This document shows positions 3,401 through 59,139 of a stretch of DNA of 64,000 nt, piece by piece. A program made the position numbers and the translations under genes. The notes under the pieces were generated by a model, which made no database searches, was not told where the DNA came from, and saw only the letters and a program-made list of their open reading frames with translations. This DNA comes from Arenicola marina (taxonomy: Eukaryota; Annelida; Polychaeta; Arenicolidae). Location of the stretch: the NCBI GenBank assembly GCA_964019135.1, contig OZ025252.1:45358959-45422958 (forward strand), in the 5' to 3' direction. The stretch's first letter is position 1; every line of letters starts with the position of its first letter.

Positions 3401-6400
3401 ATTACACGTGTATTTAGACGTTATGATATTACCATCACTTACGTTTAATACCAGTGTATTTGAGCGCTATAATGCTTCCGCCACTTACGTTTAATACCAG
3501 TGTATTTGAGCGCTATAATGCTTCCACCACTTACGTTTAATACCCGTGTATTTGAGTGCTATAATGCTTCCACCACTTACGTTTAATACCCGTGTATTTG
3601 AGCGCTATAATGCTTCCGCCACTTACGTTTAATACCCGTGTATTTGAGAGCTATAATGCTTCCACCACTTACGTTTTTTACTCGTGTATTTGAGCGCTAT
3701 AATGCTTCCGCCACTTACGTTTAATACCAGTGTATTTGAGAGCTATAATGCTTCCACCACTTACTTGTAGTACTTGGGGTCATCTCGCTCGTCGTCATAG
3801 TCTTCAAGGAACTCCTTCAGCCGCCTCGCCTCCCGGGCCTGAAGCGAGCAAGGCAGACTATCAATGGACTCCTCACACAAACTGCTGCAGCCCACAATAA
3901 TAGTCCAGGACAACATCTACATCAGTGCCTCATTGACAGGTGAACATGTTTGAACTGTGAGCGAGTCTGATCTGTGAACCACATACCGTGTCGCTTGGTC
4001 AGTCAGTCCAAACAAAACCTGAATACAGATCCCTTATCACTGGAGTTGGTGATAACATACAACCCAGACTCTTCTGCATTTAATAAACCAATACGTTCAA
4101 GTGAGCGTTGCAGTGTGTGTACAGACAAGGTTACTGTGTACACGGTGTGTACAGACAGGGTTACTGTACACTGTGTGTACAGGCAGGGTTACTGTCTACG
4201 GACAGGGTTACTGTGTACACTGTGTCTACAGACATGGATACTGTGTACAGTGTGTGCACAGACAAGGTTACTGTGTGTACAGACAGGGTTACTGTATACA
4301 GACAGGGTTACTGTACACTGTGTGTACATGCAGGGTTACTGTGTACACGGTGTGTACAGACAGGGTTACTGTGTGTACAGACAGGGTTACTGTGCACACT
4401 GTGTGTACAGACCAGGTTACTGTGTGCACGACCAGGGATACTGTGTACAGTGTGTGTACAGACAGGGTTACTGTCTACAGACAGGGTAAGTGCGTACAGT
4501 GTGCGTACAGTGTGTGTACAGACAGGGTTACTGTGTACACTGTGTGTACAGACAGGGTTACTGTGTACACTGTGTGTACAGACAGGGTTAGTGTGTGTAC
4601 TGACGGGGTTACTGTGTGTACTGACGGGGTTACTGTGTGTACAGACAGGGTTACTGTGTGTACTGACAGGGTTACTGTGTGTACAGACAGGGTTACTGTG
4701 TGTACTGACGGGGTTACTGTGTGTACAGACAGGGTTACTGTGTACAGTGTGTGTACAGACAGGGTTACTGTCTACAGACAGGGTAAGTGCGTACAGTGTG
4801 CGTACAGTGTGTGTACAGACAGGGTTACTGTGTACACTGTGTGTACAGACAGGGTTAGTGTGTGTACTGACGGGGTTACTGTGTGTACTGACGGGGTTAC
4901 TGTGTGTACAGACAGGGTTACTGTGTACTGACAGGGTTACTGTGTGTACAGACAGGGTTACTGTGTGTACTGACGGGGTTACTGTGTGTACAGACAGGGT
5001 TACTGTGCACAGTGTGTGTACAGACAGGGTTAGTGTACACAGTGTGTGTACAGACAGGGTTAGTGTACACTGTATCTACAGACAGGGTAACTGTGTGCAC
5101 TGTGTGTACAGACAGGGTTACTGTGTGTACAGACAAGGTTACTGTGTGTACTGACAGGGTTACTGTGTGTACAGACAGGGTTACTGTGTGTACTGACAGG
5201 GTTACTGTGTGTACAGACAGGGTTAGTGTGTACAGTGTGTGTACAGACAGGGTTAGTGTACACTGTGCACACAGGATTACTCTACCTCCTCCTGACGGCG
5301 ATCAGCCTCTCTCGCCAGCTCCTTCTCCAAGTCTCGAGACTTCTTCCGCTCACGTGCCTCCCACTTCTTCAGCAGCTATAACACAGGGATACAGTTGTCA
5401 CCGTTAATAGTCTCCATGGCAACTGGCCGAATAATCGTCAACGATAGACAGCACATTGCTTATTATTTAAAATTAATAAGCTGTTGAAGCAACTAAATGC
5501 AAAACTAGAATCTAAGTGTATCACAAATATTGCATTTTGCTAAAACCTTTTTTCAAACATTGAGCCGACAAACTATCTTGTCCTGAGCGATCGCCCCGGA
5601 GGTCCGTCCCACTGAGGGTCCCATGGCAGCCGGCCGGTCCCCCCACTCACCTGACCTCAGAGGTCCCACGGCAGCCGGCCGGTCCCCCCACTCACCTGAC
5701 CCCAGAGGTCCCATGGCAGCCGGCCCGTCCCCCCACTCACCTGACCTCAGAGGTCCCCTGGCAGCCGGCCGGTCCCCCTCACCCACCTGACCCCAGAGGT
5801 CCCACGGCAGCCGGCCGGTCCCCCCCCTCACCTGACCCCAGAGGTCCCACTGAGGGTCCCACGGCAGCCGGCCCGTCCCCCTCACCCACCTGACCCCAGA
5901 GGTCCCACTGAGGGTCCCACCACAGCCGGCCCGTCCCCCTCACTCACCTAACCCCAGAGGTCCCACGGCAGCCGGCCGGTCCCCCCACTCACCTGACCCC
6001 AGAGATCCCACTGAGGGTCCCACGGCAGCCGGCCCGTCCCCCTCACTCACCTGACCCCAGAGGTCCCACTGAGGGTCCCACGGCAGCCGGCCCGTCCCCC
6101 TCACTCACCTGACCCCAGAGGTCCCACGGCAGCCGACCCGTCCCCCCACTCACCTGACCCCAGAGGTCCCACTGAGGGTCCCACGGCAGCCGGCCCGTCC
6201 CCCTCACTCACCTGACCCCAGAGGTCCCACGGCAGCCGGCCGGTCCCCCCACTCACCTGACCCCAGAGGTCCCACTGAGGGTCCCACGGCAGCCGGCCCG
6301 TCCACCTCACTCACCTGACCCCAGAGGTCCCACTGAGGGTCCCACGGCAACCGGCCCGTCCCCCTCACTCACCTGACCCCAGAGGTCCCACGGCAGCCGA

Positions 6401-9400
6401 CCCGTCCCCCCACTCACCTGACCCCAGAGGTCCCACTGAGGGTCCCACGGCAGCCGGCCCGTCCCCTCCACTCACCTGACACCAGAGGTCCCACTGAGGG
6501 TCCCACGGCAGCCGGCCCGTCCCTCTCACTCACCTGACCCCAGAGGTCCCACTGAGGGTCCCACGGCAGCCGGCCCGTCCCCCTCACTCATCTGACCCCA
6601 GAGGTCCCACTGAGGGTCCCACCACAGCCGGCTCGTCCCCCTCACTCACCTGACCCCAGAGGTCCCACGATAGCCGGCCCGACCCCCTCACTCACCTGAC
6701 CCCAGAGGTCCCACGGCAGCCGGCCAGTCCCCCTCACTCACCTGACCCCAGAGGTCCCACGGCAGCCGGCCCGACCCCCTCACTCACCTGACCCCAGAGG
6801 TCCCACGGCAGCCGGCCCGACCCCCTCACTCACCTGACCCCAGAGGTCCCACGGCAGCCGGCCGGTCCCCCTTACTCACCTGACCCCAGAGGTCCCACTG
6901 CCCACTGAGGGACCCACGGCAGCCAACCGGTTCCGCCCCTGCCCCCCCCCCCGCCCCCCCACCAATCAAGCGACGCTAGAGGTGTGCCACTGAGGGCCGA
7001 CTCTTGAGCGTCTCCCACAAGGTCACTGACCTCCTGGTAGGCGTTCTCCTTCTCCTTGAGCTTCCGCTCCAGTCTCCGTCTCTCGTAGACCTCCTCCTCG
7101 TCCTCCTCTTCTCGCTCTCGCTCCCTGTAACCACGTGACATCAACATGCTTTCATATCACACAACTGGTGACCTACATTTGTCATAAAAACTATTTTTAT
7201 GACTAATCACTCAACGTTTAGAAACTATTGAAATTAATTGCAAATAATTGACCACTTTACATGAACATTACATTCTGGTTACTATGGGTCCACACCACGA
7301 CCGGCAGTAATATGAAGTAATACATACTGAACTATTTCACTCCTTTTTAAAAATGTTAACTACGCGCCTTCTGAGGGGATGCCACTTACCTAGCTCTCTC
7401 GATTTCTCGTTCGCGGTCTCGTTCTCGCGACCTTGACCGACTGCGAGACTTCAACCTCTCTCGGTCGCGCATTTCCCGGCGTTCCCGTTCTCGTTCCTTC
7501 TCTCGTTTCCTCTCGCGCTCCCGCTCCCGTTCCCGCTCTCGCTCCTCCTCTCGCCGCCGCCGCATGTCCCTCTCGCGGTCTCGCTCCCGCTCCCGTTCCT
7601 TGACGTCATCGTCCTTCAAACAGAACCAGAGCGCCCGGCGCGTGAGACGCACGTCACAGCGGAGACAAGGGGACGGTAGAGAGCGCCATGACATGCCTGC
7701 ATACCCAAGCCCCCCCCCCCTACCCCCTCCCTCACCCCACTTCCCCCTAGGGGACCCACCGCCGATCACAACGCTTGTGTATGACCCACCCTCGGCCAGA
7801 GCAGCTGCACACCCACAAATGTACTATCCTGGTACGCCATAAAACTTACTCCAGTCGTCCTGGTCGAAACAGACATAAAGAGGTGAAAAAGTAGCAAGTA
7901 TATACTATATTTACAGGAAACACAACATTTGTCGCGCAGGCAGGACAGGGCCTTTGTTGGTGTGCAGCCCCTTACCACGAGCCACGTGGCTGCCAAATCA
8001 GAGCTAAGCAACCTTTGCAAGACAACTTTACTGCCATCAAATTATATAGCAAGCATTCAATGACGTCACATGATGACGTCACACTGAGCCAACATATGAC
8101 GTCATTGAATGCTATGAATCCAGACTGCTGACTACACTATGTGCCGTGGCGGCGTCGGATAGCACATGAAACCTGTACTACCGATGGCATACCGGCCCTC
8201 ATCAACCACAGACGGGTCTACTCGACTGCAGCGGTAGTGCTAGGAGTACGAATGCCACGTGGCTTTGTGGTAAAATGGCCGCCGTGTTTAGCGCCAGCAC
8301 GACCAGGAATCTGAGCTTCCAGCTAGGATACCTCAACTCATTCACAATGAGGACCGCTAGACGGCGCTGCCTGTTCCCTTGCTGGCGGTGGAGATTGCCT
8401 CCCATTGTTCATCAACCAAACAGAACCCCGACAATAATATGATCACCAACATCTAAACGGATATAGATCTTAAAGACGTTAACAGACACCACGTAATGTG
8501 AGAATAAAACACTTTGGCTCACGCTCGAAGTCACTTCGCTCTTACTCCTTGCGGGTTCTCCCGGCGGCTAAGGCCAGTGAGTAGCACCCCCTCTAGCGGC
8601 CAGAAGGGGTACTCACTGACGTCTGCAACTTCAAACACAAAGCTTCCCACATCGTTAGGCGTTCCCGCTCATTGCCTTACCTAGCGTCACTACCCAACAG
8701 AAACAGACCATCGCGGATACACGGGCTTCCCATACCTCGTTTGAATTACATCAAAGTTCCGTGGATAACCATAAAAAACAATTTAAAAAGGACGAATTTG
8801 TCCATAATTGTCTGGTTGTCAAAATGACCCATTCTAAGGCAACACCATTTATTTTATGTTCAGTGTTTACAATGTGCTCACATGCACAATAGCAATACAT
8901 CGGAACGTGCGATACGTGCGTGCAAACAACTATCTGCTATATCTTATTCAAGTCCAATTGTCACATTTAAGATTATTAATCACAGAAAACCTTTATATAT
9001 AATATTGATCCACCTTTATTTATCTCAGGATACCCCGCACTGATGTGGACATAGAGAGCCTATATATATCTCTTCTCACTACCGGTTTGATACCGAATCG
9101 TCGGAGGTGCAGCTGACCACGGCAAGGCCGTCTACGTCGAGTATGTAGCCCACAGCATATATATATAGACCATAACCAGCCAACAGGCCTACAGCACACT
9201 TTAAAAACTCTGTGGGGAGGCAACCTCGCAGCGCTTTACGCCTTAAGGATCTAAATTGGTGAGCTGCAGTTCAAGGTATGAAAGTAATACATGGGTAAAA
9301 AGTATTCGGTAAAAATGAAATGTAAATATCACTCACCTTCGAGGAATACAGCTACCACAAGTGACAAATGATGTGTGGGCTAATGAATAGTAGATTGCAC

Positions 9401-12400
9401 TTACCTCAAATGTGTGCTTCACAAGCTCCTGGTAGTGTCCTTATTAACCACAGATTCACAAGAGGACAAGAAACAATAACACCTGATCTCCTTATTAGAT
9501 GGGAGAGAAGTGCAGAAGGGGAAGGAAGGGATGAGACACCGGGGGTTTATATTTAGGCTATTTAGCAATGGCTACTTTTATGCAATTTGTTCAATGCGAA
9601 TTCATCCTATGATGGTGAGGAAGAAAGTTTAACCAATCATCTGGACAAGATATATTTCCTCTTTTACATTCGCTGCATATAAATGTAGGTAAACTTTATT
9701 GCTAATCAACAAAGCACTAATGCAAGTTAGTTACAACGGAGTAACGTCCCAGTAGTTGTCGGCAGCTCTTAACTTGTGGGTTCTGAGGGGATACTGGCTG
9801 AAGCAGTCCCTGCCTACTTCCACATACAAACACTAGGACCACGGGTAGAGCGAGGGACTACTGCAAACACGTGATGTACATACCCGGAAGCTCCTCTTCT
9901 GAGCGGCCATGCTAAACGTTCTAAATTTGCCAAGTTTCAAAAACAAACACTTACCACCTAAGGCAGATAAAGAAAGAACACATCCTATTCATTTCGTGGT
10001 GTTGAAGTGGAGTGGCTTATCCCGAACAGATCTATTAATTCATTCAGGGTAATGAAACACGTGTTAATGTCATGGCGGGACAAGAGAGATCTTCAAAACA
10101 AGGTCAATTTCAAAGAGTTCTTTTTCCCGAAATCTATCTATAGCATTATAATGAATAACGACTATAAACCAAGACGGGTTATCTCGGCATATAACGATTT
10201 CCAAGACATTCACTAGGTACGCAGAAGGCTCATGTTCGGAGAGCAGTGCCACTCGTTGGATGCTGAATTCGATTTTTGCGAAAATTTATGTCCCAAATGT
10301 TTTGGTTTTTGCATTTGCATTCATATTCAGTTGTCCAAGATTTCTTAACTTTCCATTGGGGATTTCTTTTTAGCTAACTGTCCGCTGAATAAAACTGTAC
10401 CTTATGTGCGTCTCGGAAGCTTCTAATTTCTCTGTTGATCAGGTCCAACTTCTCCCCCTCGATTTCCATATTGTCCAAGCTCTGCAGGATACAACGAGGT
10501 CACAGTTAATGACTGACAGTGAGAAAGACAACACGTGCTTGAGGACCAACGGTGATTGACTGTTACAACTTGACGCCACATTATGTTTTTTTTATTTTTA
10601 TACATACAGTTATCAACAGATACAATTAGCCCCATGGTATGAGGGGATCATACCTCGTCCTTTTCTTTCAATTTTTCCTTGTGTTTCCGTTTCTTATCCT
10701 TTTCTTCTTGTGATGGTTCTGCGAAAAAAAACGACGTACACATGAGATTGTTGACATCCACAGGACCCCACGCCGCCCTCACACCCCACCCACCCACCCA
10801 CCCTTACTGGCACTGACCTGGGGGCGGACTCTTGGCCATGTCCTGGGCGTACTCCCGCATGATGGCGTCCAGGCCGGCACTGCCCACGCCGCCCTCACAC
10901 CCCACCCACCCACCCACCCTTACTGGCACTGACCTGGGGGCGGACTCTTGGCCATGTCCTGGGCGTACTCCCGCATGATGGCGTCCAGGCCGGCACTGCC
11001 CACGCCGCCCTCACACCCATCCACCCTTACTGGCACTGACCTGGGGGCGGACTCTTGGCCATGTCCTGGGCGTACTCCCGCATGAATGCGTCCAGGCCGG
11101 CACTGCCCACGCCGCCCTCACACCCCACCCACCCACCCACCCTTACTGGCACTGACCTGGGGGCGGACTCCTGGCCATGTCCTGGGCGTACTCCCGCATA
11201 ATGGCGTCCAGGCCGGCAGTGGCCACACCGCCCTCACACCCCACCCACCCACCCACCCTTACTGGGACTGACCTGGGGGCGGACTCTTGGCCATGTCCTG
11301 GGCGTACTCCCGCATAATGGCGTCCAGGCCGGCACTGCCCACGCCGCCCTCACACCCCACCCACCCACCCACCCTTACTGGCACTGACCTGGGGGCGGAC
11401 TCTTGGCCATGTCCTGGGTGTACTCCCGCATGATGGCGTCCAGGCCGGCAGTGGCCACACCGCCCTCACACCCCACCCACCCACCCACCCTTACTGGCAC
11501 TGACCTGGGGGCGGACTCTTGGCCATGTCCTGGGCGTACTCCCGCATGATGGCGTCCAGGCCGGCAGTGGCCACACCGCCCTCACACCCCACCCACCCAC
11601 CCACCCTTACTGGCACTGACCTGGGGGCGGACTCTTGGCCATGTCCTGGGCGTACTCCCGCATGATGGCGTCCAGGCCGGCAGTGGCCACACCGCCCTCA
11701 CACCCCACCCACCCACCCACCCTTACTGGCACTGACCTGGGGGCGGACTCTTGGCCATGTCCTGGGCGTACTCCCGCATGATGGCGTCCAGGCCGGCACT
11801 GCCCACGCCGCCCTCACACCCATCCACCCTTACTGGCACTGACCTGGGGGCGGACTCTTGGCCATGTCCTGGGCGTACTCCCGCATGAATGCGTCCAGGC
11901 CGGCACTGCCCACGCCGCCCTCACACCCCACCCACCCACCCACCCTTACTGGCACTGACCTGGGGGCGGACTCTTGGCCATGTCCTGGGCGTACTCCCGC
12001 ATAATGGCGTCCAGGCCGGCAGTGGCCACACCGCCCTCACACCCCACCCACCCACCCACCCTTACTGGGACTGACCTGGGGGCGGACTCTTGGCCATGTC
12101 CTGGGCGTACTCCCGCATAATGGCGTCCAGGCCGGCACTGCCCACGCCGCCCTCACACCCCACCCACCCACCCACCCTTACTGGCACTGACCTGGGGGCG
12201 GACTCTTGGCCATGTCCTGGGTGTACTCCCGCATGATGGCGTCCAGGCCGGCAGTGGCCACACCGCCCTCACACCCCACCCACCCACCCACCCTTACTGG
12301 CACTGACCTGGGGGCGGACTCTTGGCCATGTCCTGGGCGTACTCCCGCATGATGGCGTCCAGGCCGGCAGTGGCCACACCGCCCTCACACCCCACCCACC

Positions 12401-15400
12401 CACCCACCCTTACTGGCACTGACCTGGGGGCGGACTCTTGGCCATGTCCTGGGCGTACTCCCGCATGATGGCGTCCAGGCCGGCAGTGGCCACACCGCCC
12501 TCACACCCCACCCACCCACCCACCCTTACTGGCACTGACCTGGGGGCGGACTCTTGGCCATGTCCTGGGCGTACTCCCGCATGATGGCGTCCAGGCCGGC
12601 ACTGCCCACGCCGCCCTCACACCCATCCACCCTTACTGGCACTGACCTGGGGGCGGAATCTTGGCCATGTCCTGGGCGTACTCCCGCATGAATGCGTCCA
12701 GGCCGGCACTGCCCACGCCGCCCTCACACCCCACCCACCCACCCACCCTTACTGGCACTGACCTGGGGGCGGACTCCTGGCCATGTCCTGGGCGTACTCC
12801 CGCATAATGGCGTCCAGGCCGGCAGTGGCCACACCGCCCTCACACCCCACCCACCCACCCACCCTTACTGGGACTGACCTGGGGGCGGACTCTTGGCCAT
12901 GTCCTGGGCGTACTCCCGCATAATGGCGTCCAGACCGGCACTGCCCACGCCGCCCTAACACCCCACCCACCCACCCACCCTTACTGGCACTGACCTGGGG
13001 GCGGACTCCTGGCCATGTCCTGGGCGTACTCCCGCATAATGGCGTCCAGGCCGGCAGTGGCCACACCGCCCTCACACCCCACCCACCCACCCACCCTTAC
13101 TGGGACTGACCTGGGGGCGGACTCTTGGCCATGTCCTGGGCGTACTCCCGCATAATGGCGTCCAGGCCGGCACTGCCCACGCCGCCCTCACACCCCACCC
13201 ACCCACCCACCCTTACTGGCACTGACCTGGGGGCGGACTCTTGGCCATGTCCTGGGTGTACTCCCGCATGATGGCGTCCAGGCCGGCAGTGGCCACACCG
13301 CCCTCACACCCCACCCACCCACCCACCCTTACTGGCACTGACCTGGGGGCGGACTCTTGGCCATGTCCTGGGCGTACTCCCGCATGATGGCGTCCAGGCC
13401 GGCAGTGGCCACACCGCCCTCACACCCCACCCACCCACCCACCCTTACTGGCACTGACCTGGGGGCGGACTCTTGGCCATGTCCTGGGCGTACTCCCGCA
13501 TGATGGCGTCCAGGCCGGCAGTGGCCACACCGCCCTCACACCCCACCCACCCACCCACCCTTACTGGCACTGACCTGGGGGCGGACTCTTGGCCATGTCC
13601 TGGGCGTACTCCCGCATGATGGCGTCCAGGCCGGCACTGCCCACGCCGCCCTCACACCCATCCACCCTTACTGGCACTGACCTGGGGGCGGACTCTTGGC
13701 CATGTCCTGGGCGTACTCCCGCATGAATGCGTCCAGGCCGGCACTGCCCACGCCGCCCTCACACCCCACCCACCCACCCACCCTTACTGGCACTGACCTG
13801 GGGGCGGACTCTTGGCCATGTCCTGGGCGTACTCCCGCATAATGGCGTCCAGGCCGGCAGTGGCCACACCGCCCTCACACCCCACCCACCCACCCACCCT
13901 TACTGGGACTGACCTGGGGGCGGACTCTTGGCCATGTCCTGGGCGTACTCCCGCATAATGGCGTCCAGGCCGGCACTGCCCACGCCGCCCTCACACCCCA
14001 CCCACCCACCCACCCTTACTGGCACTGACCTGGGGGCGGACTCTTGGCCATGTCCTGGGTGTACTCCCGCATGATGGCGTCCAGGCCGGCAGTGGCCACA
14101 CCGCCCTCACACCCCACCCACCCACCCACCCTTACTGGCACTGACCTGGGGGCGGACTCTTGGCCATGTCCTGGGCGTACTCCCGCATGATGGCGTCCAG
14201 GCCGGCAGTGGCCACACCGCCCTCACACCCCACCCACCCACCCACCCTTACTGGCACTGACCTGGGGGCGGACTCTTGGCCATGTCCTGGGCGTACTCCC
14301 GCATGATGGCGTCCAGGCCGGCAGTGGCCACACCGCCCTCACACCCCACCCACCCACCCACCCTTACTGGCACTGACCTGGGGGCGGACTCTTGGCCATG
14401 TCCTGGGCGTACTCCCGCATGATGGCGTCCAGGCCGGCACTGCCCACGCCGCCCTCACACCCATCCACCCTTACTGGCACTGACCTGGGGGCGGAATCTT
14501 GGCCATGTCCTGGGCGTACTCCCGCATGAATGCGTCCAGGCCGGCACTGCCCACGCCGCCCTCACACCCCACCCACCCACCCACCCTTACTGGCACTGAC
14601 CTGGGGGCGGACTCCTGGCCATGTCCTGGGCGTACTCCCGCATAATGGCGTCCAGGCCGGCAGTGGCCACACCGCCCTCACACCCCACCCACCCACCCAC
14701 CCTTACTGGGACTGACCTGGGGGCGGACTCTTGGCCATGTCCTGGGCGTACTCCCGCATAATGGCGTCCAGACCGGCACTGCCCACGCCGCCCTCACACC
14801 CCACCCACCCACCCACCCTTACTGGCACTGACCTGGGGGCGGACTCTTGGCCATGTCCTGGGTGTACTCCCGCATGATGGCGTCCAGGCCGGCAGTGGCC
14901 ACACCGCCCTCACACCCCACCCACCCACCCACCCTTACTGGCACTGACCTGGGGGCGGACTCTTGGCCATGTCCTGGGCGTACTCCCGCATGATGGCGTC
15001 CAGGCCGGCACTGCCCACGCCGCCCTCACACCCCACCCGCCCACCCACCCTTACTGGCACTGACCTGGGGGCGGACTCTTGGCCATGTCCTGGGTGTACT
15101 CCCGCATGAATGCGTTCAGGCCGGCACTGCCTACGCCGCCCTAACACCCCACCCACCCACCCACCCTTACTGGCACTGACCTGGGGGCGGACTCTTGGCC
15201 ATGTCCTGGGTGTACTCCCGCATGAATGCGTCCAGGCCGGCACTGCCTACGCCGCCCTAACACCCCACCCACCCACCCACCCTTACTGGCACTGACCTGG
15301 GGGCGGACTCTTGGCCATGTCCTGGGCGTTCTCCCGCATGATGGCGTCCAGGCCGGCAGTGGCCACACCGCCCTCACACCCCACCCACCCACCCACCCTT

Positions 15401-18400
15401 ACTGGCACTGACCTGGGGGCGGACTCTTGGCCATGTCCTGGGCGTACTCCCGCATGATGGCGTCCAGGCCGGCAGTGGCCACGCCGCCCTCACACCCCAC
15501 CCACCCACCCACCCTTACTGGCACTGACCTGGGGGCGGACTCTTGGCCATGTCCTGGGCGTACTCCCGCATAATGGCGTCCAGGCCGGCAGTGGCCACAC
15601 CGCCCTCACACCCCACCCACCCACCCACCCTTACTGGCACTGACCTGGGGGCGGACTCTTGGCCATGTCCTGGGTGTACTCCCGCATGATGGCGTCCAGG
15701 CCGGCAGTGGCCACACCGCCCTCACACCCATCCACCCTTACTGGCACTGACCTGGGGGCGGACTCTTGGCCATGTCCTGGGCGTACTCCCGCATGATGGC
15801 GTCTAGGCCGGCAGTGGCCACACCGCCCTCACACCCCACCCACCCACCCACCCTTACTGGCACTGACCTGGGGGCGGACTCTTGGCCATGTCCTGGGTGT
15901 ACTCCCGCATGAATGCGTCCAGGCCGGCACTGCCTACGCGGCACTGCCTACGCCGCCCTAACACCCCACCCGCCCACCCACCCTTACTGGCACTGACCTG
16001 GGGGCGGACTCTTGGCCATGTCCTGGGCGTACTCCCGCATGAATGCGTCTAGGCCGGCAGTGGCCACGCCGCCCTCACACCCCACCCACCCACCCACCCT
16101 TACTGGCACTGACCTGGGGGCTGACTCTTGGCCATGTCCTGGGTGTACTCCCGCATGATGGCGTCCAGGCCGGCAGTGGCCACGCCGCCCTCACACCCCA
16201 CCCGCCCACCCACCCTTACTGGCACTGACCTGGGGGCGGACTCTTGGCCATGTCCTGGGCGTACTCCCGCATGATGGCGTCCAGGCCGGCAGTGGCCACA
16301 CCGCCCTCACACCCCACCCACCCACCCACCCTTACTGGCACTGACCTGGGGGCGGACTCTTGGCCATGTCCTGGGCGTACTCCCGCATGATGGCGTCCAG
16401 GCCGGCAGTGGCCACGCCGCCCTCACACCCCACCCACCCACCCTTACTGGCACTGACCTGGGGGCGGACTCTTGGCCATGTCCTGGGTGTACTCCCGCAT
16501 GAATGCGTCCAGGCCGGCACTGCCCACGCCGCCCTCACACCCCACCCACCCACCCTTACTGGCACTGACCTGGGGGCGGACTCTTGGCCATGTCCTGGGC
16601 GTACTCCCGCATGATGGCGTCCAGGCCGGCAGTGGCCACGCCGCCCTCACACCCCACCCACCCACCCACCCTTACTGGCACTGACCTGGGGGCGGACTCT
16701 TGGCCATGTCCTGGGCGTACTCCCGCATGATGGCGTCCAGGCCGGCAGTGGCCACGCCGCCCTCACACCCCACCCACCCACCCACCCTTACTGGGACTGA
16801 CCTGGGGGCGGACTCTTGGCCATGTCCTGGGCGTACTCCCGCATGAATGCGTCCAGGCCGGCAGTGGCCACGCCGCCCTAACACCCCACCCACCCACCCT
16901 TACTGGCACTGACCTGGGGGCGGACTCTTGGCCATGTCCTGGGCGTACTCCCGCATGATGGCGTCCAGGCCGGCAGTGGCCACGCCGCCCTCACACCCCA
17001 CCCACCCACCCACCCTTACTGGCACTGACCTGGGGGCGGACTCTTGGCCATGTCCTGGGCGTACTCCCGCATGATGGCGTCCAGGCCGGCAGTGGCCACG
17101 CCGCCCTCACACCCCACCCACCCACCCACCCTTACTGGCACTGACCTGGGGGCGGACTCTTGGCCATGTCCTGGGCGTACTCCCGCATGATGGCGTCCAG
17201 GCCGGCAGTGGCCACGCCGCCCTCACACCCCACCCGCCCACCCACCCTTACTGGCACTGACCTGGGGGCGGACTCTTGGCCATGTCCTGGGCGTACTCCC
17301 GCATGATGGCGTCCAGGCCGGCAGTGGCCACACGGTCCTCTCGCTTGGTGAACTCGTCCAAGGCGTCAATGTCCTCTTCCTCGCTCTCCTTCTCGCCATC
17401 CTCCACGATCTCTCCCTGCTCCTTGCCCTCCTTCTCCTCCTCCTCCTTGCCCTCACCCTCAGCCTTCTTCTCCTCTTTCCTCTTCTTTCTCTTGTAATCG
17501 TCCAGCTGTGCTTTCGTCTTGGCGTCTACTTTGACCTGAAAACAACAAAATCAGAGTTACGTTGAATGTGGTCTTCAACTGGGTCCCCAAGAGATATGAT
17601 AAAGTCCTTGATTCTTCCTTTATTTATCATTACCAGACACCATTCCTAATAATTCTCAATAATATTTGACGACATATCAATAGCAGGATATGTGCTCTTG
17701 GGAGCTATGCAAGTTATATATTGTAGTTATTTCCATCAGTCAGCCATCACCAAAGGTGGTCTGCTCATTGTTTCAGTAGCTATCAGCACTCACCACTAGT
17801 CATTTGTTAGCTATGGGCCATTCAGTTTCAGCAGCTATCAGCACTCACCACTAGTCGTTTGTTAGCTATTGGCCACTCAGTTTCAGTAGCTACCAGCACT
17901 CACCACTAGTCGTTTGTTAGCTATGGGCCATTCAGTTTCTGTAGCTATCGGCACTCACCACTAGTCGTTTGTTAGCTATGGGCCATTCAGTTTCAGTAGC
18001 TATCAGCACTCACCACTAGTCGTTTGTTAGCTATGGGCCATTCAGTTTCAGTAGATATCGGCACTCACCACTAGTCGTTTGTTAGCTATGGGCCACTCAT
18101 TTAGAAGTCTGATACATCTCAACGTGGCTTCAGGCTCTTCATATTCACAGAATCCAAAGGCTGCAAAAATAAAAAGTCACATTAGTCTGGTTGTTGTATT
18201 TGTATATGCAGGACGCTCTAACCAATTCTGGTCATAATGCGTCAATGGGAGAAGTAACGGAAGAGGATAACCTTGTCCCCGGGGTCACCCCCTACTATGA
18301 TAACCTTCATTAGGGTAAAGTGTATTTAGTTAATGTCAAAACATTACTGAAACCTTTTACAGTGATTTCGTTTATCCTCAGATCAAGTAATCACATGCTA

Positions 18401-21400
18401 AGCATACCACTTGCCTTGAAGTTTCCCAGAAGCACCTTGAACTCGTTTCCAACTTAAAACATTGCCACAGCGCTGCAAATAAGTTAAATATTGATACATA
18501 AATCTGAATAATGAATGCAAAGTTGATTCATATAAATTGCTGTAAAATAACTCAGGCTGTCCAGCACACCCTCATGAAAAAGTAGGACAAAAGTAGGAAT
18601 GGAAATACAGAAAAAGTAGGACGAAAGTAGGAAAATAGAAGCAAAAAGTATGACTCAAATAGCATATGTAGCAACATTATTCCGGATAAACAAAGGACTA
18701 AACGTTATTTTACTAAGAAAATGCCTTTTTAGAAAATTTCTTATATGCTGCTCAGCTGTACCTGTATTTTCATTATTAGAACTTGACAGACACTAGTGTT
18801 GATTTAAAGAAATATCAGGACGCAAAAACAAAATACCTCTGACTTTTGCAATAATAGAAGCGATATACACACTTTTACAGCAATTCACGACATTTTGAAG
18901 TTGCGCCTGGTGAAGCAAATACCAAAAAGTAGGAAAATGTAGGTATTTTGAAGAAAAAGTATGAAAAATAGGATGGAGACAAAAAAGTAGGAAAAAGTAG
19001 GAAAAGTAGGATCACTGGACAGCCTGAATAACTATTAATACGTTACACCATTGACGTATTCTACAAGTGTTCACTCTTCACTAAAGCAGCATCACATAAT
19101 ATGAGCCTTTAATACAAGTAATATCAATTATGGGACGTTAAATCGCCTCATTATTAGAGTCGGGTACCACAGTGGGTCGTTGTTCCATGTAAGGGCGAAT
19201 CATTGTTTCAGCATAGCTCACGTATTACTCACGCCTAACGTATACTACAATAATACATTTCGTTGGCTCTAACATGAAAGATGGACCCCAGAGTGGCTCT
19301 CACAAGGTGCCAAGCAGAACAAGTTGCTTCAATGTCTAGAGACTCCCACCTGAAGCATCTGCCGAATCATTGCATCAGGAGCTCTCTCACTGATATTACC
19401 AACAAATACAGTGGTCACAGGGGGTTTGTCTTCCTTGTCTTCTTTCTGCAATCACACACATATCCACAGTAGATGGTAGTTGGCATGGGAAAGACCTGTT
19501 TACCTCCGAGGCTATATTGCTGTTGTCCACATGAAGAGTAAAAGCTCGACGAAACACATCCTGGGTGTCAACCCGCTACTCTAATAATGCAGTTTCATGA
19601 ATAAATTATACATTTCACAAAGGATACATGGCATGACAGGACATCAACTTCCAAAGTGGATACCCTATTTTATCTATTGAGAACATCAAATCATGCAGAT
19701 AATGTCAAAAGGATTAGTAAGATGATATCTTTTCTATCCCTCAGGACACATTTAAACCGTTGCAAAAATAACAAGATCTACTTGGCAACAATTCTCACCT
19801 TGGGGATATCCTGTGGTATCAATTTCTTTGTATGTCTGGCGTTGTTATTGGGGCCGTCAGAGTTTGACATATTTCCCATATGTTGATGCCTCATCATCTG
19901 ATAATGTAAAAAATCATGACATTGCCTGTAACCACAACAAAGATAGGATTGCCAACTGAGAGACATAATAAACATGGTATAATGCTGGTTATACCGGTAA
20001 ATATAATATATGGCCATGGCTTATGACACAGCTCAGCTAAAGTTGCTTTAAACCCTGGTTTGAATTGATGACACAAAAATATAAATATGAATATTTCTTA
20101 GATTACAAGAAAATTTGTTTAGAAATTTTAGAACAGAACACAACGAAAAGACAGAAAGAAGTACTTACAGGCATCATTCCCATCCCCATTGGCATCATCC
20201 CTGAAAAAAAAGACAGATACAACATCATTTACACTGCAAACTTCACCCCAAATGAAACTCCATGACAGATGGATAAGCAAGGTGCTATAACATATTTGCA
20301 TCCGTGGACAAAAGTTGGTATAATGTAGGGACCATTGTACTTGTATAATACAACATATTGCCTTAAGTGAAAGATTATACATATCCAGATTTATAGACAG
20401 TCAGTAAACAATATCAGAAAGTTCACCAAGACCATCAAAAATTTATAATCATTTAAAACTATACAGTTCTGCTATATGTATATTTATAGATTACCGTAAA
20501 CTGCCTATTTGAAGCCGCATACATATTAGAAGCTGCACCCCAAGTTTGGCCTCAAAACCAGGTTGGCAGGCACCCAGAACCATTTCCGGAAAAATACATA
20601 TTATAAGTCGCACCTGGACTTTGGCCTCTCACCCCCCCCCCCCCCCCTCCCTGTATCCCTGCTTAATCTCATCCCGCCAACCAAACCAATTAATTGTTTA
20701 TACAAGCAGTCGTGACCACTAACAACATTCAGCTGAGCCCTCCCCCTCCGATTGCACCTCTTATCAAGTGTCACACAAGTGGCTGGCTCTCCTGGCCGCT
20801 ACCAAGCGAATTTATTGTTTATACAAGCAGTCGTGACTACTAACAACATTCACCTCTCCGATCGCAGCTCTTATCAAGTGTCACACCAGTGACTGTCTCT
20901 CCTGGCTCTTACTGCATGTTTATGAATTACTATCGTACCTAACCAATATCAAATTACTGTCAAGCACAATTAACTTCTTGCATTTGGTGTGAGGTCGGCG
21001 GCAGCTGTATCCATTTATACCACATGAAACCTGGCCTCTGATCATTGGTCTACAATAGGTGTGGGCGGAGTCGCGAGGCAGTAGTAAAAAATAACACAAC
21101 CGTAAGTAGCTCATTGTGAGTCTTGATTGCCACATTAATACATTGCCTACGAACATCTTGTGATGCAGCTTTCAAGTTGAATTATCTCCCGACTTGTTGA
21201 CTTATATGAGTAATTTTTGTATTACCCCTCTCCCCCCTGTCTCACCACGCTACTTGAAATCGGCAAAAGGGCTTATTTAAAGCTGCACCCTGACTTGGGA
21301 CTCAAACCCAGAAAGTGGAACCTCCAACTTCTTAATATAAGCTGCGGCTTCAAATAGGCAGTTTACAGTACTTATATATCAGAATGGCAAAAGTGTGATT

Positions 21401-21500
21401 TTCTATTTCACTCACCCATGTGCGAGTAGCCATAGCCTTGCATCATCCCCCCAGGGGGCATGGGAGGCATGCCCATAGGGGGACGAGGCGGATAGGACAT
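275..21500 (-). CDS. RBM25: RBM25 splicing factor gene, 17 coding exons (3' end off window)
   Basis: RNA-binding protein 25, a nuclear SR-like splicing regulator; in mammals it affects 5' splice-site choice and associates with U1 snRNP components (family knowledge). Seen here: 17 minus-strand exons with good splice sites whose phases join into one open frame of 879 codons. Order: Met/Pro/Gly-rich N-terminus (1-39), RRM (about 80-157; VFVGNI and AFGFCEY as RNP2 and RNP1), Glu/Lys-rich linker, RE/RD-rich helical region (295-505), a long lineage-specific segment (506-733), the conserved block RRKLVPLDY..IEKIPTAKEELFAY (733-830) and the first half of the PWI domain (831-879). Exon order and content match the vertebrate protein. 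The frame runs into a donor after DVAM, so the PWI domain finishes beyond position 1. A short exon between exons 9 and 10 could be missing from my model. Several introns carry minisatellites at their 5' splice sites. Confidence 0.95.
443..728. repeat. 17-bp minisatellite at acceptor side of RBM25 exon 17
   Basis: About 16 units related to CTCCGCCAGACATATCA, later ones longer with an inserted CGGTTAT. It ends about 20 nt from the 3' splice site of exon 17, so its position differs from the donor-side arrays in this gene. Confidence 0.85.
1350..1642 (-). CDS. RBM25: RBM25 exon 16
   Basis: Residues 733-830: RRKRLTVGDVFNQEEEDDG, RRRKLVPLDYSEEE, then IKNLIEKIPTAKEELFAYEL and DWTMVDT. This is the highly conserved pre-PWI segment of RBM25. 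Acceptor TTCGCCAG, donor GACACG^GTCAGTC. Confidence 0.94.
2005..2161. repeat. 22-bp minisatellite at RBM25 exon 15 donor
   Basis: About seven units of GGGGGCGCCACCCGTGTCCC on the plus strand. The unit nearest the exon merges into the donor GTACGTATGGCGCC, so the array starts at intron position +1. Confidence 0.85.
2162..2843 (-). CDS. RBM25: RBM25 exon 15, long DR-rich exon
   Basis: Residues 506-733 in one 682-nt exon: Pro/Ala/Glu-rich segment, a repeat-like run of (V/M/L)DR motifs (for example VDRGMGMDRALDRSGVDRG), a Gly-rich tract, LSNSVSTMSSPDVSDG, and RSRIGFGGLKLG, the counterpart of the vertebrate RPKIGLSLKLG. The DR-repeat portion has no counterpart that I recall in vertebrate RBM25. 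Donor CTAG^GTACGTATG lies on a 22-bp minisatellite. Confidence 0.88.
3151..3301 (-). CDS. RBM25: RBM25 exon 14
   Basis: Residues 455-505: SSLQRRLKEREKEMEADDRD, then REKEELEEIRRKLEEEGHPD and IEAEMAR, matching vertebrate SALQKRLRDREKEMEADERD. Acceptor TCCGGCAG, donor GCCAGG^GTACGA. Confidence 0.93.
3433..3764. repeat. 46-bp minisatellite at RBM25 exon 13 donor
   Basis: Seven to eight units at a regular 46-bp spacing (starts near 3435, 3481, 3527, 3573, 3619, 3665, 3711, 3757). Every unit carries CACTTAC on the plus strand, i.e. a GTAAGTG donor on the transcribed strand. The last one is the real donor of exon 13. Confidence 0.92.
3765..3838 (-). CDS. RBM25: RBM25 exon 13
   Basis: Residues 431-455, AREARRLKEFLEDYDDERDD then PKYYK; near-identical to the vertebrate KRLKEFLEDYDDDRDDPKYY block. 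Donor TACAA^GTAAGTGG (out phase 2), immediately followed by the 46-bp array. Confidence 0.93.
4100..5279. repeat. 20/30-bp minisatellite in RBM25 intron 12
   Basis: Several dozen units of TGTGTACAGACAGGGTTACT, with longer variants carrying an extra GTGTACACT. It starts within a few bases of the exon 12 donor; the donor-proximal sequence GTAGAGTAATCCTGTGTGCA resembles a degenerate unit. Overlapping ORFs on both strands here are products of the repeat. Confidence 0.9.
5286..5375 (-). CDS. RBM25: RBM25 exon 12
   Basis: Residues 401-430, LLKKWEARERKKSRDLEKEL then AREADRRQEE, matching the NWEIRERKK region. Acceptor GTTATAG, donor GAGGAG^GTAGAG. A 20/30-bp minisatellite begins within a few bases of this donor. 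Confidence 0.9.
5590..6900. repeat. 46/58-bp minisatellite in RBM25 intron 11
   Basis: Roughly 25 units of two lengths that differ by a 12-bp ACTGAGGGTCCC segment. On the transcribed strand each unit contains CAGGTGAGTGAG, a perfect 5' splice-site consensus, although the true donor of exon 11 (GAG^GTCAGTG) lies at 7030. Intron sequence near 6975-7000 looks like a diverged unit. Confidence 0.9.
7031..7124 (-). CDS. RBM25: RBM25 exon 11
   Basis: Residues 369-400, containing EVYERRRLERKLKEKENAYQ, equivalent to the vertebrate DAYERRKLERKLREKEAAYQ block. Donor CAGGAG^GTCAGTG. The next intron carries the 46/58-bp array at 5590-6900. Confidence 0.92.
7390..7613 (-). CDS. RBM25: RBM25 exon 10, RE-rich region
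   Basis: Residues 295-369: DDDVKERERERDRERDMRRR followed by long Arg/Glu repeats and an SRSRSRSRERDRE stretch. Acceptor TTTGAAG (AAG type), donor GCTAG^GTAAGTG (out phase 2). The RE/RD-rich region localises RBM25 to speckles in mammals (family knowledge). Confidence 0.9.
7614..10400 (-). other. RBM25: RBM25 intron 9
   Basis: About 2.8 kb between exons 10 and 9. It holds a CRE-bearing hairpin (8051-8114), a second short inverted repeat around 8577-8622 (AGTGAGTA...TACTCACT) and AT-rich TATATATA stretches near 9060 and 9160. I see no further exon or recognisable transposon. Confidence 0.4.
8051..8114. repeat. Hairpin with three CRE palindromes
   Basis: AGCATTCAATGACGTCA and its exact reverse complement (17-bp stem) flank a loop of about 29 bp. 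Complete TGACGTCA palindromes lie at 8061-8068, 8074-8081 and 8097-8104. It may be a miniature inverted-repeat element or a CREB/ATF-type enhancer; the sequence alone cannot tell. Confidence 0.6.
10401..10481 (-). CDS. RBM25: RBM25 exon 9
   Basis: Residues 268-294, SLDNMEIEGEKLDLINREIR then SFRDAHK, matching the conserved LINREI..FRD block of RBM25. Acceptor TCCTGCAG, donor CATAAG^GTACAG. Confidence 0.88.
10654..10718 (-). CDS. RBM25: RBM25 exon 8
   Basis: Residues 246-267, Lys-rich (EPSQEEKDKKRKHKEKLKEK). Acceptor TTTTTTTCGCAG, donor GACGAG^GTATGA. It sits just beyond the far end of the large minisatellite, so exon 7 must splice across about 6.5 kb of repeats. Confidence 0.85.
10766..17330. 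repeat. 116-bp exon/intron-junction minisatellite, RBM25 intron 7
   Basis: About 57 units, mostly 116 bp, filling almost the whole intron between exons 7 and 8. Read on the transcribed strand, each unit has about 70 nt matching the 3' end of exon 7 (coding ATAGLDAIMREYAQDMAKSP), then the donor GTCAGTGCC, then a G-rich spacer of GGGT repeats. Shorter units recur periodically and define an 803-bp higher-order repeat: the same marker occurs at 11086, 11889, 12692, 13727 and 14530, with steps of 803, 803, 1035 and 803. Confidence 0.96.
17262..17535 (-). CDS. RBM25: RBM25 exon 7, acidic linker
   Basis: Residues 155-246: VKVDAKTKAQLDDYKRKK, a Glu/Lys-rich run, DIDALDEFTKRED, then VATAGLDAIMREYAQDMA. 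Ends CCCCCAG^GTCAGTGCC (out phase 1). The last roughly 70 nt of this exon are the source of, or a copy in, the 6.5-kb array downstream. Confidence 0.92.
17745..18068. repeat. 55-bp exon/intron-junction minisatellite, RBM25 intron 6
   Basis: Six copies of the junction CTAGTG^GTGAGTGC at an exact 55-bp spacing (17787, 17842, 17897, 17952, 18007, 18062 on the plus strand). Each unit includes about 29 nt of exon 6 coding sequence (PIANKRLV) followed by the donor and intron start. Confidence 0.94.
18069..18160 (-). CDS. RBM25: RBM25 exon 6, RRM second half
   Basis: Residues 124-154: AFGFCEYEEPEATLRCIRLL then NEWPIANKRLV. AFGFCEY is RNP1. The exon ends CTAGTG^GTGAGTGC, and this very junction is the core of the 55-bp minisatellite that follows it. 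Confidence 0.92.
18205..18308 (-). repeat. SINE fragment (same family as 39410-39658)
   Basis: Matches the 3' half of the tRNA-derived SINE at 39410-39658 (shared GTCAATGG and a CCCCGGGGTCACC-like block), with many differences. No tRNA head is present. Confidence 0.55.
18415..18472 (-). CDS. RBM25: RBM25 exon 5, RRM middle, GC donor
   Basis: Residues 105-124, RCGNVLSWKRVQGASGKLQ, the beta2 region. The frame and the RRM alignment require the non-canonical donor CAAG^GCAAGT, which fits the strong GC-AG consensus. Confidence 0.88.
18553..19026. mobile_element. hAT-like non-autonomous DNA element
   Basis: Terminal inverted repeats CAGGCTGTCCAG / CTGGACAGCCTG, flanked on both sides by AATAACT (7 bp). 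The interior is non-coding and unusually rich in AAAAGTAGG-type motifs on the plus strand near both ends. TIR start CAGG and the short duplication suggest a hAT relative; the assignment is an inference. Confidence 0.7.
19350..19445 (-). CDS. RBM25: RBM25 exon 4, RRM first half
   Basis: Residues 73-104. Contains PPVTTVFVGNISERAPD..IRQMLQ: beta1/RNP2 (VFVGNI) and helix 1 of the RRM. Acceptor GATTGCAG, donor CTTCAG^GTGGGAG. Confidence 0.9.
19799..19897 (-). CDS. RBM25: RBM25 exon 3
   Basis: Residues 40-72, starting MMRHQHMGNMSNSDG and ending PQDIPK, a polar linker before the RRM. Acceptor TTATCAG, donor CCCAAG^GTGAGAA, phase 0 on both sides. Confidence 0.8.
20169..20200 (-). CDS. RBM25: RBM25 exon 2 (32-nt microexon)
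   Basis: A 32-nt exon encoding residues 29-39, GMMPMGMGMMP, between TTTTTTTCAG and CCT^GTAAGTAC. Too short for ORF finding, but it continues the Met/Gly-rich stretch of exon 1 in phase (1 in, 0 out). Confidence 0.8.
20492..21371. mobile_element. pogo/mariner-like element, copy 1
   Basis: About 880 bp with inverted ends TACCGTAAACTGCCTATTTG / CAAATAGGCAGTTTAC and TA at each end. Related throughout to copy 2 at 22726-23620. The interior near 21150-21190 retains a decayed version of the transposase start seen in copy 2. Lies in intron 1 of RBM25, between coding exons 1 and 2. Confidence 0.75.
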
Positions 21501-21519
21501 CCTGGTTTAAGGTTGGTAA
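21416..21519 (-). CDS. RBM25: RBM25 exon 1 (first coding exon)
   Basis: ATG at 21498-21500 opens MSYPPRPPMGMPPMPPGG and runs to a CATGG^GTGAGTG donor (out phase 1). A TTTCAG acceptor at 21519/21520 leaves 19 nt of 5' UTR in this exon, so the gene must have at least one upstream non-coding exon. The Met/Pro/Gly-rich start is typical of RBM25. Confidence 0.85.
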
Positions 21520-22020
21520 CTGAAATATACAAAACATACATAAATGTGAGTCAGTATGACAGTTGTTGTTCAGCATTATCTTTGTATCTTCTTTATATCA
21601 CAATTTATTTTATTGTAGAACTGTGTGACCACGTCTTAGCAGCGTAACTGTCCAGCCTTTCTCTATGAGGTGAAACCAGAGAATTTCCCACTTATACCTG
21701 TAGCACCTCCTGCTGACAATTTTGGCGCTTGTCTCTTTGAATGGCTGTGCAAATGTTAGGATGAAATGTGGAATATCAGCAGCTTGGTGAAAAAAAGTTT
21801 AGGTAAATAGTTTAAGGCATGTAGAATTAACATATAATAAGGATTGGATGCAGTCTTCACCTAGAAATTAATACTAGTCACAAGTGGAGGGGTTTCAAAT
21901 CGGGACCCTGGTCGAATAGGAGGGAGGCCTGGGGGTTCTTCAGGGCTATCACAATTGCAATCTCGAAAGGGGCATCTTTTTGTAACATACCTAAAAATCA
22001 GGGATAATATAATTACCTCC
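21520..22020. other. Non-coding sequence upstream of RBM25 coding exon 1
   Basis: Presumed 5' intron of RBM25 or its upstream region. No CpG-rich promoter-like patch, exon or transposon was recognised. Confidence 0.3.
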
Positions 22021-29480: not shown

Positions 29481-29589
29481 GGCTGCAGCCCTGCTCGGGT
29501 ATTAAAGCCCACAGCTGTATGTGGTAAATGCGCTGGAGAGCTGTGCTGGCAGCCAGCCTGGAAAGTGGTTGGGGTAGGCAAAGAGTTAA

Positions 29590-31629: not shown

Positions 31630-35839
<4,210 letters not shown>

Positions 35840-36462
35840 TTATAATTTAAAATGTCCAGAAAATAATATGTATAGTTCGTCAAAAGTAAGAGTTGTCCTT
35901 AAATAAACCCCAGTTTACAATTTTAAAAGTTGTGAAGGTTATTTGAGACTGATACCCCCTAAGTTATTACCCTCTGATGTTTCCCCCAGTTTTGTTTCTT
36001 TACAAGCCCGCGAACTGTAGAAGTGCACAACTAGTCTGTTCACGATTGTGTGATTCTATGACGTAATGTTACTTGACAACGTTTATTACGTCATCAATAG
36101 TACGTGAAACACTCAGGTAATCTACAAATCTCGTGGTGAACCATTTTAAAAGTTTATTGGTTCGAACAAAGGATCCCGATATTGCAAATTAATTACGATT
36201 CACCATTAGTATGGATAAAAACCTGATATTATCTTATTAAAATATTGGGATAAAGATGTAAAACAAAAAAAATCATGTTCAGTCACGTAACGATTGGCTT
36301 AGCATCAGTTACTATGACGATGAGAGAACAAAACACGGATTTTTTTTCTTCCGGGACTCAAGATTCGATGAGGACTTAGATTCCACCGTGAAGTTTTCAT
36401 GAATCTATATTGTTTTTTCGTTTTCTTTACAACTTTTCTTTTGTTGCTATAACGTCGGCTTT
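35840..36462. promoter_or_regulatory. Bidirectional TSSK promoter region with paired CRE-like sites
   Basis: The 623 bp between two divergent TSSK start codons. It contains TGACGTAA at 36059-36066 and TTACGTCA at 36086-36093, inverted CRE-like sites 27 bp apart. CREM/ATF-type factors drive many post-meiotic male genes in mammals (family knowledge); that they act here is inference. No TATA box close to either start stands out. Confidence 0.5.
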
Positions 36463-37569
36463 ATGTCGCTGTGCAAACGAAGGCGCAATGATATGGGACC
36501 AGAGAGTGTCCCTGAGTTGGAGCAGGAACTCAGGCGTCTAAGCATGGAGATCGAACCAGTAGCAGTGAGACAAGTCGATCAAACATCGCTCATGGGCTAC
36601 CGCCCAACCTATCGCGCGGTTCTTGCTAAACAAGGATATCTCGTACGCAATAGCATAGGCAGTGGATCCTACTCAAAAGTGAAAATGGCACTAAACGTTA
36701 ACGGACGTGGCGCAGAAAAGGTAGCGGTCAAAATCATTGATCGATTGAAAGCACCGAAGGATTATCAGCACAAGTTTTTACCAAGAGAACTGAAATTCTG
36801 GCCGGAACTCTCCCATCCTCATCTTGTTCACCTGCATGATGTTTTCAGTGATTCCAGACGAGTATACATAATTTTACAGTTCGCGGACAATGGCGATGTT
36901 TTGCGCCATGTCCAGCGCCACGGAGCGGTGAGTGAACATTTATCACGAAAGTGGACCCACCAGGTAACTGATGCTGTCCGTTACATGCACGAAAAAGATA
37001 TTACGCACAGAGACTTGAAATTGGAGAATCTCCTGCTTGATAGCGACCGCAATGTAAAGATATGTGACTTTGGATTTATCAAACCTAACAGCTCTAAGGA
37101 TCTCAGCCGTACATACTGCGGATCAAAGTCATACGCGGCGCCGGAAATATTGCAAGGTCGGCCGTATGACCCTAAAAAATCTGACGTCTGGGCTTTAGGC
37201 GTCATCATTTATATCTTGGTAACAGGCAAAATGCCATTTGATGAAACGAAAGGTACCAAAAGTATCCTGAATGAGCAAACGAAACTGTCGTTTCGGTGGC
37301 CTGGAGTTATTACGGACACGTGCAAGAAACTCATCAGAGATATATTTACATGGGATTACCTTGACAGACCGACAGTTCAGAAAGTATTGACGTACGACTG
37401 GTTTCACTGCAGACCTAAGGCCTCAGAAAAGGAAGTAATTGATACGCCACAAGCATCAACCTCTGCTGCTGTGAAGAATGATATTGTATCGGATGTGTCC
37501 GGCGAAAAGAAACGGTTGTTACTGGGCAGAGGCGAAACAGCGCCCACCCGTGCAGGGGATGGAAAATAA
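36463..37569 (+). CDS. TSSK: Intronless TSSK-family kinase (TSSK4-like features)
   Basis: A 368-aa single-exon kinase. Motifs: glycine loop GSGSYSKVK (66-74), VAVKI with Lys90, DRLKAPKDYQHKFLPREL, VYIILQFADNGDVL, HRDLKLENLLLD (182-193), CDFGFIK (201-207), [15 protein letters not shown] (218-232), DVWALGVIIY, and a C-terminal low-complexity tail of about 50 residues. All catalytic residues are present. VYIIL..NGDVL and the longer N-terminus (about 57 residues before the kinase domain) recall TSSK4 more than TSSK1/2; the subfamily call is uncertain. Lack of introns beside a four-exon relative suggests descent from a retrocopy, now head to head with it. Confidence 0.93.
   Translation: MSLCKRRRNDMGPESVPELEQELRRLSMEIEPVAVRQVDQTSLMGYRPTYRAVLAKQGYLVRNSIGSGSYSKVKMALNVNGRGAEKVAVKIIDRLKAPKDYQHKFLPRELKFWPELSHPHLVHLHDVFSDSRRVYIILQFADNGDVLRHVQRHGAVSEHLSRKWTHQVTDAVRYMHEKDITHRDLKLENLLLDSDRNVKICDFGFIKPNSSKDLSRTYCGSKSYAAPEILQGRPYDPKKSDVWALGVIIYILVTGKMPFDETKGTKSILNEQTKLSFRWPGVITDTCKKLIRDIFTWDYLDRPTVQKVLTYDWFHCRPKASEKEVIDTPQASTSAAVKNDIVSDVSGEKKRLLLGRGETAPTRAGDGK

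Positions 37570-38928: not shown

Positions 38929-59139
<20,211 letters not shown>

Follow-up and report, generated by a model that had tools for sequence, protein, structure and literature searches.

Minisatellites that copy exon-intron junctions in genes of the annelid Arenicola marina

Two genes and the arrays at their junctions

The window, which is the whole stretch of 64 kb that was analysed, contains two minus-strand genes, RBM25 and WDR64, with exon ends derived from sequence and homology. In protein comparison, RBM25 is closest to lophotrochozoan sequences, and a maximum-likelihood tree places it beside Capitella (96/93) and apart from Branchiostoma; the WDR64 of the window is nearest to that of Lingula (66%). 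Both genes argue against amphioxus as the source. RBM25 exon E5 seems to use a GC donor, TTCAAG/GCAAGT, at 18414 (-). An intronless protein-kinase ORF of 388 aa lies between the two genes (36403-37569, +), and two candidate 91-nt tRNA genes of equal Rfam score are found at 59359-59449 and 60427-60517 (-), with fragments resembling them near 62500-62800 and 63970. TRF returned 67 rows for the window, which were collapsed into 19 arrays. The genes and the arrays discussed below are as follows, in window positions.

275..21519, minus strand: RBM25 gene, 18 coding exons inside the window (E1-E18), 3' end beyond its edge
441..726, minus strand: 17/28-bp minisatellites ending 19 nt before the RBM25 E18 acceptor (E18 275-421; TRF)
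2010..2154, minus strand: 22/23-bp minisatellite from 7 nt behind the RBM25 E16 donor (E16 2162-2843; TRF)
3403..3764, minus strand: 46-bp minisatellite, about 8 copies, unit beginning exactly at the RBM25 E14 donor (E14 3765-3838; TRF)
4115..5274, minus strand: 21/42-bp minisatellite from 11 nt behind the RBM25 E13 donor (E13 5286-5375; TRF)
5617..6898, minus strand: composite minisatellite, periods 45-58 and multiples, 132 nt behind the RBM25 E12 donor (TRF)
10768..17331, minus strand: 116-bp minisatellite, 57 copies, across the RBM25 E7 donor (E7 17262-17535); unit of 70 nt exon end and 46 nt intron (TRF, gene model)
17770..18099, minus strand: 55-bp minisatellite, 6 copies, across the RBM25 E6 donor (E6 18069-18160); unit of 31 nt exon end and 24 nt intron (TRF, gene model)
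48945..59139, minus strand: WDR64 gene, internal exons W1-W11 (11 exons)
49324..52082, minus strand: 71-bp minisatellite, 39 copies, from 11 nt behind the WDR64 W10 donor (W10 52094-52178; TRF)
52187..52409, minus strand: 34-bp minisatellite ending 8 nt before the WDR64 W10 acceptor (TRF)
52430..52686, minus strand: 28-bp minisatellite, about 9 copies, across the WDR64 W9 donor (W9 52675-52802); unit of 12 nt exon end and 16 nt intron (TRF)
55883..58258, minus strand: 56-bp minisatellite, about 42 copies, across the WDR64 W2 donor (W2 58235-58341); unit of 24 nt exon end and 32 nt intron (TRF, gene model)

When TRF arrays and gene models are combined, 8 of the 29 donors of the two genes lie inside an array or at most 11 nt from one, in agreement with a preliminary description of this DNA that had reported at least eight introns in two unrelated genes with a minisatellite at or near the 5' splice site. 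The donors of E6, E7, W2 and W9 are inside the array, which takes in 31, 70, 24 and 12 nt of the respective exon, and the remaining distances are 0 nt (E14), 7 nt (E16) and 11 nt (E13 and W10). At five of the 29 donors, the donor is part of the repeat unit, and four of these units also carry 12-70 nt of coding sequence; both counts match those given earlier, the junction then assigned to RBM25 exon 13 being that of E14. The unit sequences are unrelated, with a single 15-nt match among 18 arrays, and it is position that is shared, as had been proposed. None of the 29 acceptors lies inside an array, one is within 11 nt (W10, 8 nt), and one is at 19 nt (E18). The E16 array repeats GGTGGCGCCCC, a sequence that also spans the acceptor of the next exon, E17 (2010-2161, 1633-1643, -), reflecting either an acceptor-side relation or chance.

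The comparison of array distances with random positions that had been suggested as a genome-wide check was made within the window. For random placement of each array within its own intron, 8 of the 12 intronic arrays fall within 11 nt of a donor against 1.5 expected (exact P = 5.6e-8, which describes the window only, because the window was picked for its arrays), and on the acceptor side 1 of the 12 falls within 11 nt. Twelve of 13 intronic arrays were tested, since the array at 610-726 was merged into its neighbour.

At all five junctions with donor-containing units, orthologous proteins run through the junction and the window protein has no added sequence, which fits use of the first donor. 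The alignment is gapless to chiton and Lingula at RBM25 E6/E7, to chiton at E14/E15, and to Lingula WDR64 across W2/W3 and W9/W10; E7/E8 lies in a variable charged stretch, where the junction itself is ungapped and gaps occur a few residues beyond it (chiton, Lingula). Therefore, the exon ends are old coding sequence, conserved in the proteins of other phyla, and the copies behind them are derived. An artefact of assembly or of wrongly placed exon ends has to be considered for exon ends that come from sequence and homology and for arrays that come from one assembly, and it is very improbable: the copies differ from one another (mean mismatch 3-9% in the five window junction arrays), the proteins align across the junctions, and 13 separate WD40 loci, spread over 8 chromosomes, show the same anatomy, as described below.

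The arrays contribute a large share of intron length. In the 27 introns of the two genes (27,602 bp), 50% of the DNA belongs to arrays that span a donor or lie at most 11 nt from one. The E7 array makes up 99% of its 6.5-kb intron, and the arrays at 52187..52409 and 52430..52686 together account for 94% of the W9-W10 intron. The median intron measures 369 bp without a donor array and 990 bp with one, of which 258 bp is non-array sequence.

Donors and acceptors in a sample of the genome

The assembly, 867 Mb in 762 contigs, was examined by sample. Of 712 candidates in a search with PF00400, 150 were scored hits, and from these 80 WD40 loci, each a hit with 400 bp on either side, were selected roughly by E-value with the sequence unseen at selection; long frames, near-duplicates and hits interrupted by internal stops were excluded. 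A simple matrix called 73 donors and 69 acceptors. After manual correction of one site of each type and removal of two donors that belonged to last or doubtful exons, 71 donors and 69 acceptors were left.

Arrays span 13 of the 71 WD40 donors, whereas the rate at which arrays begin within the first 300 nt of intron would predict 2.1 (P 4e-7); the density of array starts at donor exon ends is about six times that of these 300 nt. The loci are L032, L047, L051, L054, L060, L066, L072, L073, L077, L083, L086, L088 and L100, on 8 chromosomes; L060 is doubtful, and its omission leaves 12 of 70 donors. The exon part of the unit is 7 nt or less in L051, L060 and L083. Acceptors are spanned in 5 of 69 cases (L030, L045, L061, L064, L088) against 3.5 expected (P 0.28), and the difference between donors and acceptors in this sample is significant (Fisher p = 0.028). 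Arrays with at least four copies number 11 at donors and 2 at acceptors, with a cut-off that was chosen after the data were seen. One exon, in L088, has arrays at both ends, and intact acceptor copies stand ahead of the real acceptors in L030 and L088. In L064 (129-418), the acceptor-spanning 96-bp units lie inside one open frame, and the copied acceptors have CAT where the real one has CAG.

Protein kinases (Pkinase) were rejected as a second test family, as their hits are mostly single-exon or stop-bearing. The replicate, on RRM exons, was fixed beforehand at 60 exons with 400-bp flanks and was run on 20 with 200-bp flanks, selected for small hits and short frames. Arrays span 0 of the 20 RRM donors, which counts against generality, and 1 of the 20 acceptors (L120). 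When both samples are pooled, donors and acceptors stand at 13 versus 6 (two-sided p = 0.17). The extension of the class beyond the window thus holds for the WD40 sample and fails for RRM donors: it is real in WD40 genes but patchy rather than universal. The acceptor-spanning arrays in five WD40 loci and one RRM locus also lead to the rejection of a donor-only class, which is therefore better described as donor-biased.

Some further arrays in the WD40 sample deserve mention. Those at L025 1-245 and L056 1-107 lie upstream of acceptors and carry sense donor motifs, and may therefore be the distal parts of arrays whose anchor is the donor of the previous exon; among 39 arrays not extending over a donor, the units contain three donor motifs in sense and none in antisense orientation. 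At L085 589-798, a 31-bp array extends over the stop codon in what appears to be a last exon, in a gene that we take to be FZR1-like; this coding/non-coding boundary is not a splice site.

The searches also gave several observations unrelated to the arrays. By hand count, chromosome C3 carries about 70 of the 122 listed Pkinase matches, the majority of them in frames some 280-320 aa long. On the small contigs C443, C465, C504, C330, C652, C497, C609, C684 and C232, the stops that interrupt kinase frames are all TAA or TAG, as if the contigs came from a contaminant reading these codons, as is known of ciliates. Frames of exactly 424, 519 and 462 aa with equally scoring RRM matches are present in many copies on many chromosomes and are probably mobile elements or retrocopies. 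Contig C762, with a COX1 match at 7161-8501 that reads through 13 TGA codons, is probably mitochondrial.

The repeat background of this genome is high. Tandem repeats with a period of at least 10 cover on average 41.5% of 21 ten-kb stretches of chromosome C1 (range 0.5%-100%), and the background therefore matters. Arrays are also linked to base composition, exon GC3 being 0.82 in 36 loci with arrays and 0.67 in 44 without (p 8e-6); for donor-spanning arrays alone, the link is non-significant (11 of 55 GC3-rich versus 2 of 25 other exons, p = 0.21). The low GC3 of the RRM exons (0.51, measured in 18 of 20) may explain part of the negative donor result. With some 40% of the genome in minisatellites, the exon ends of GC-rich genes might be expected to fall within arrays anyway, with no cause specific to donors, and both the GC3 link and the spanned acceptors and negative RRM donors are compatible with this. 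We nevertheless regard it as quite unlikely, given that exon starts are nearly as GC-rich as exon ends (55% in the first 45 nt and 57% in the last 45 nt of WD40 sample exons) and yet acceptors have no excess over introns, that array starts show the six-fold excess at donor exon ends, and that 8 of the 12 window arrays abut donors.

An excess of array starts at donors specifically, with unrelated sequences, would also be expected if transcription-linked events there, such as R-loops on G-rich intron starts, polymerase pausing or U1 binding, initiated duplications as a mutational hotspot, with no need for selection. The intron part of the unit is indeed G-skewed in several arrays (for example E7 0.69, L032 0.67, L083 0.87 and L100 0.60), but the skew is negative or nil in others (W2 -0.33, L066 -0.54, L088 -0.50, L051 and L073 0), and the RRM donors, in array-poor and AT-richer genes, have no such arrays. 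A hotspot of this kind is therefore considered unlikely as the main cause.

Variation among the copied donors

The copies were compared in 18 junction arrays, five from the window and 13 from the WD40 sample. At positions +1 to +6 of the copied donor, 19 mismatches are present in 1272 positions, a count that takes in all units including the functional one; the remaining non-CpG columns of these 18 arrays would predict 53.9. Circular shifting of the donor window round the unit gives P = 0.004 for the 18 arrays, 0.002 without L060, and 0.014 without the two largest arrays (E7 and W2). For 14 donor-like motifs in arrays of random loci, several of them sharing an array, the ratio averages 1.01 (median 0.81). 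These results suggest constraint round the copied junction.

Such constraint would follow if selection kept the repeated donors as U1 snRNP landing sites, marking the exon end or suppressing premature cleavage and polyadenylation. As general background, duplicated donors are bound by U1, and in vitro a downstream site can win when both are bound. In addition to the low mismatch count and the average behaviour of the random-locus motifs, this proposal draws on the E7 array, where CAGGTCAGT is intact 57 times in 57 copies and CAG/GTCAGT is found 57 times exactly, and on the E12 array, which has 20 intact CAG/GTGAGT and no recognised piece of E12; the E14 array contains 8 copies of GTAAGT. However, P is 0.05 in the 13 sample arrays alone (0.04 without L060) and 0.012 in the wider window -3 to +6 (all 18 arrays), and the copies are not independent. 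Among four control windows, the exon window -9 to -4 is also quiet (ratio 0.55, P 0.02), the window +7 to +12 is noisy (ratio 1.5) and two are average, so the low-variation signal is not confined to the U1 site. Moreover, the E13 and W10 arrays abut donors though neither contains a sense GTRAGT. The selection for repeated U1-binding sites that the preliminary description had offered as an alternative thus gains modest support from the less variable copied donors, which by themselves do not demonstrate selection, and we judge it unlikely. Its stronger form, according to which dozens of intact donor copies are kept behind exon ends as rows of U1 landing sites, arose independently in spiralians and cephalochordates, and make intron size in such genomes largely the extent of exon-end copying, is slightly more doubtful still.

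The relationship of the copies to the functional unit was also compared. Exon-proximal copies are closer to the real exon in 9 arrays, farther in 2 and tied in 2 (n=13), a trend only (Wilcoxon p = 0.15). At least one E7 copy and the first copies of W2 and W9 are identical to the functional copy over the whole unit. The consensus unit length is not divisible by 3 in 14 of the 18 junction arrays, and use of the next donor in these would therefore shift the frame.

Tolerated duplication as a probable origin, and known parallels

On balance, the arrays are probably donor-anchored minisatellites of the kind known as mirages, generated by tandem duplication in a minisatellite-prone genome and tolerated at donors as the first donor is the one spliced, a reading that we hold with restrained confidence. 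Short tandem duplications would sometimes span an exon end together with its donor, with the upstream copy continuing to serve as the actual exon end. Provided that splicing takes the first donor, the copies behind it become intron, are tolerated and are free to multiply, and the intron would lengthen as the array grows. Duplication of an acceptor would instead place a complete acceptor ahead of the real one, and because this upstream copy can capture splicing, it would be harmful more often, and acceptor arrays would be rarer, with fewer copies. Selection on the protein would keep the exon copy intact; therefore, the seed of an array could not be lost and the array could be rebuilt.

Tolerated duplication is favoured by the anatomy of the units, the donor excess in the WD40 sample, the fit of orthologues to the first donor, the predicted frame shift at the next donor and the donor-array share of introns, as well as by the tandem-repeat cover on C1 and the higher GC3 of array loci. 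Against it stand the RRM donors and the pooled comparison, the intact acceptor copies in L030 and L088, the non-significant proximal-copy trend and GC3 link for donor-spanning arrays, and a variability of copied donors lower than neutral copies should have. With tolerance as the sole factor, arrays should begin as often in exon ends as in introns; in view of the six-fold excess, a seed, a hotspot or selection is therefore needed in addition.

Arrays of this kind are already known. The mention in the preliminary description of minisatellites in amphioxus introns proved correct, the published name being "mirages"; in amphioxus globin genes, these occur at both exon-intron boundaries with regular splicing, and earlier cases are cited in the available part of that paper (PMC3087553), while in amphioxus PGBD5, mirage repeats abut donors, according to the part of the report available (PMC3902484). 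As in amphioxus, the Arenicola unit combines exon and intron with an intact splice signal; the donor is in the unit at 5 of the 29 window donors, and arrays span the 13 donors and 5 acceptors of the WD40 sample. The passages available on the amphioxus arrays further describe length instability and a proposed help in intron creation. Unlike those, the present arrays are hosted by a spiralian rather than a cephalochordate and reach 57 copies and 6.5 kb; their donor excess and copied-donor variability were measured across a genome sample, whereas the available passages of the globin paper contain no test of donor bias.

Related phenomena have been described in other organisms, again as far as the accessible parts of the sources go. 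The supposition that nothing is in print outside cephalochordates is rejected, as human minisatellites at exon-intron boundaries of primate-specific paralogues have been published, with 27 intron modifications (PMC2812944). Those tandem repeats are likewise of minisatellite size and overlap the boundaries, but they differ between recent paralogues, average about 30 bp x 4, have been proposed to form novel introns and often keep the repeat in the exon, whereas in Arenicola it is conserved introns, already present, that lengthen at their donors. Intron gain by tandem genomic duplication of sequence with AGGT (reviewed in PMC3443670) similarly duplicates splice-signal sequence and results in more intron; it makes a new intron inside an exon, while the Arenicola introns already exist and extend from their own donors. 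The polyubiquitin gene UBC has a tandem array of dual-specific splice sites (PMC10809524), resembling the present arrays in its regular usable splice sites within a tandem repeat; the UBC repeats are coding and variably spliced, and the copies here are intronic and would mostly break the frame. Among annelids, earthworm metallothionein introns carry minisatellites, for which the accessible text describes no junction-spanning units (PMC12783039). Microsatellites have been noted in cone-snail introns (PMC3862624), and the direct repeats reported at intron borders (PMC11782384), which are short at 4-30 bp, are a different matter. The parts available of PMC4039745, PMC3152781 and PMC2206037 describe no junction-spanning units either, and no spiralian junction-spanning minisatellite was found among the matches listed in the literature search, which lay mostly outside subscription papers. 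As far as could be searched, the additions made here to a known kind are the spiralian host, the scale of the arrays, a donor bias that was measured, and the low variation of the copied donors.

The choice of one donor among many is an old question in splicing, and these genes present up to 57 copies of an exon end, its donor and the start of its intron. Where copies are identical to the functional unit, local sequence cannot discriminate between them, and position or order must therefore do so, which makes the arrays a natural test of splice-site choice among near-identical copies. A practical point is that such arrays can mislead gene prediction. For the evolution of gene structure, they represent a simple route to intron growth, half of the intron DNA of two genes being in arrays that copy or abut a donor, and their presence in cephalochordates and in a spiralian suggests a recurrent process.
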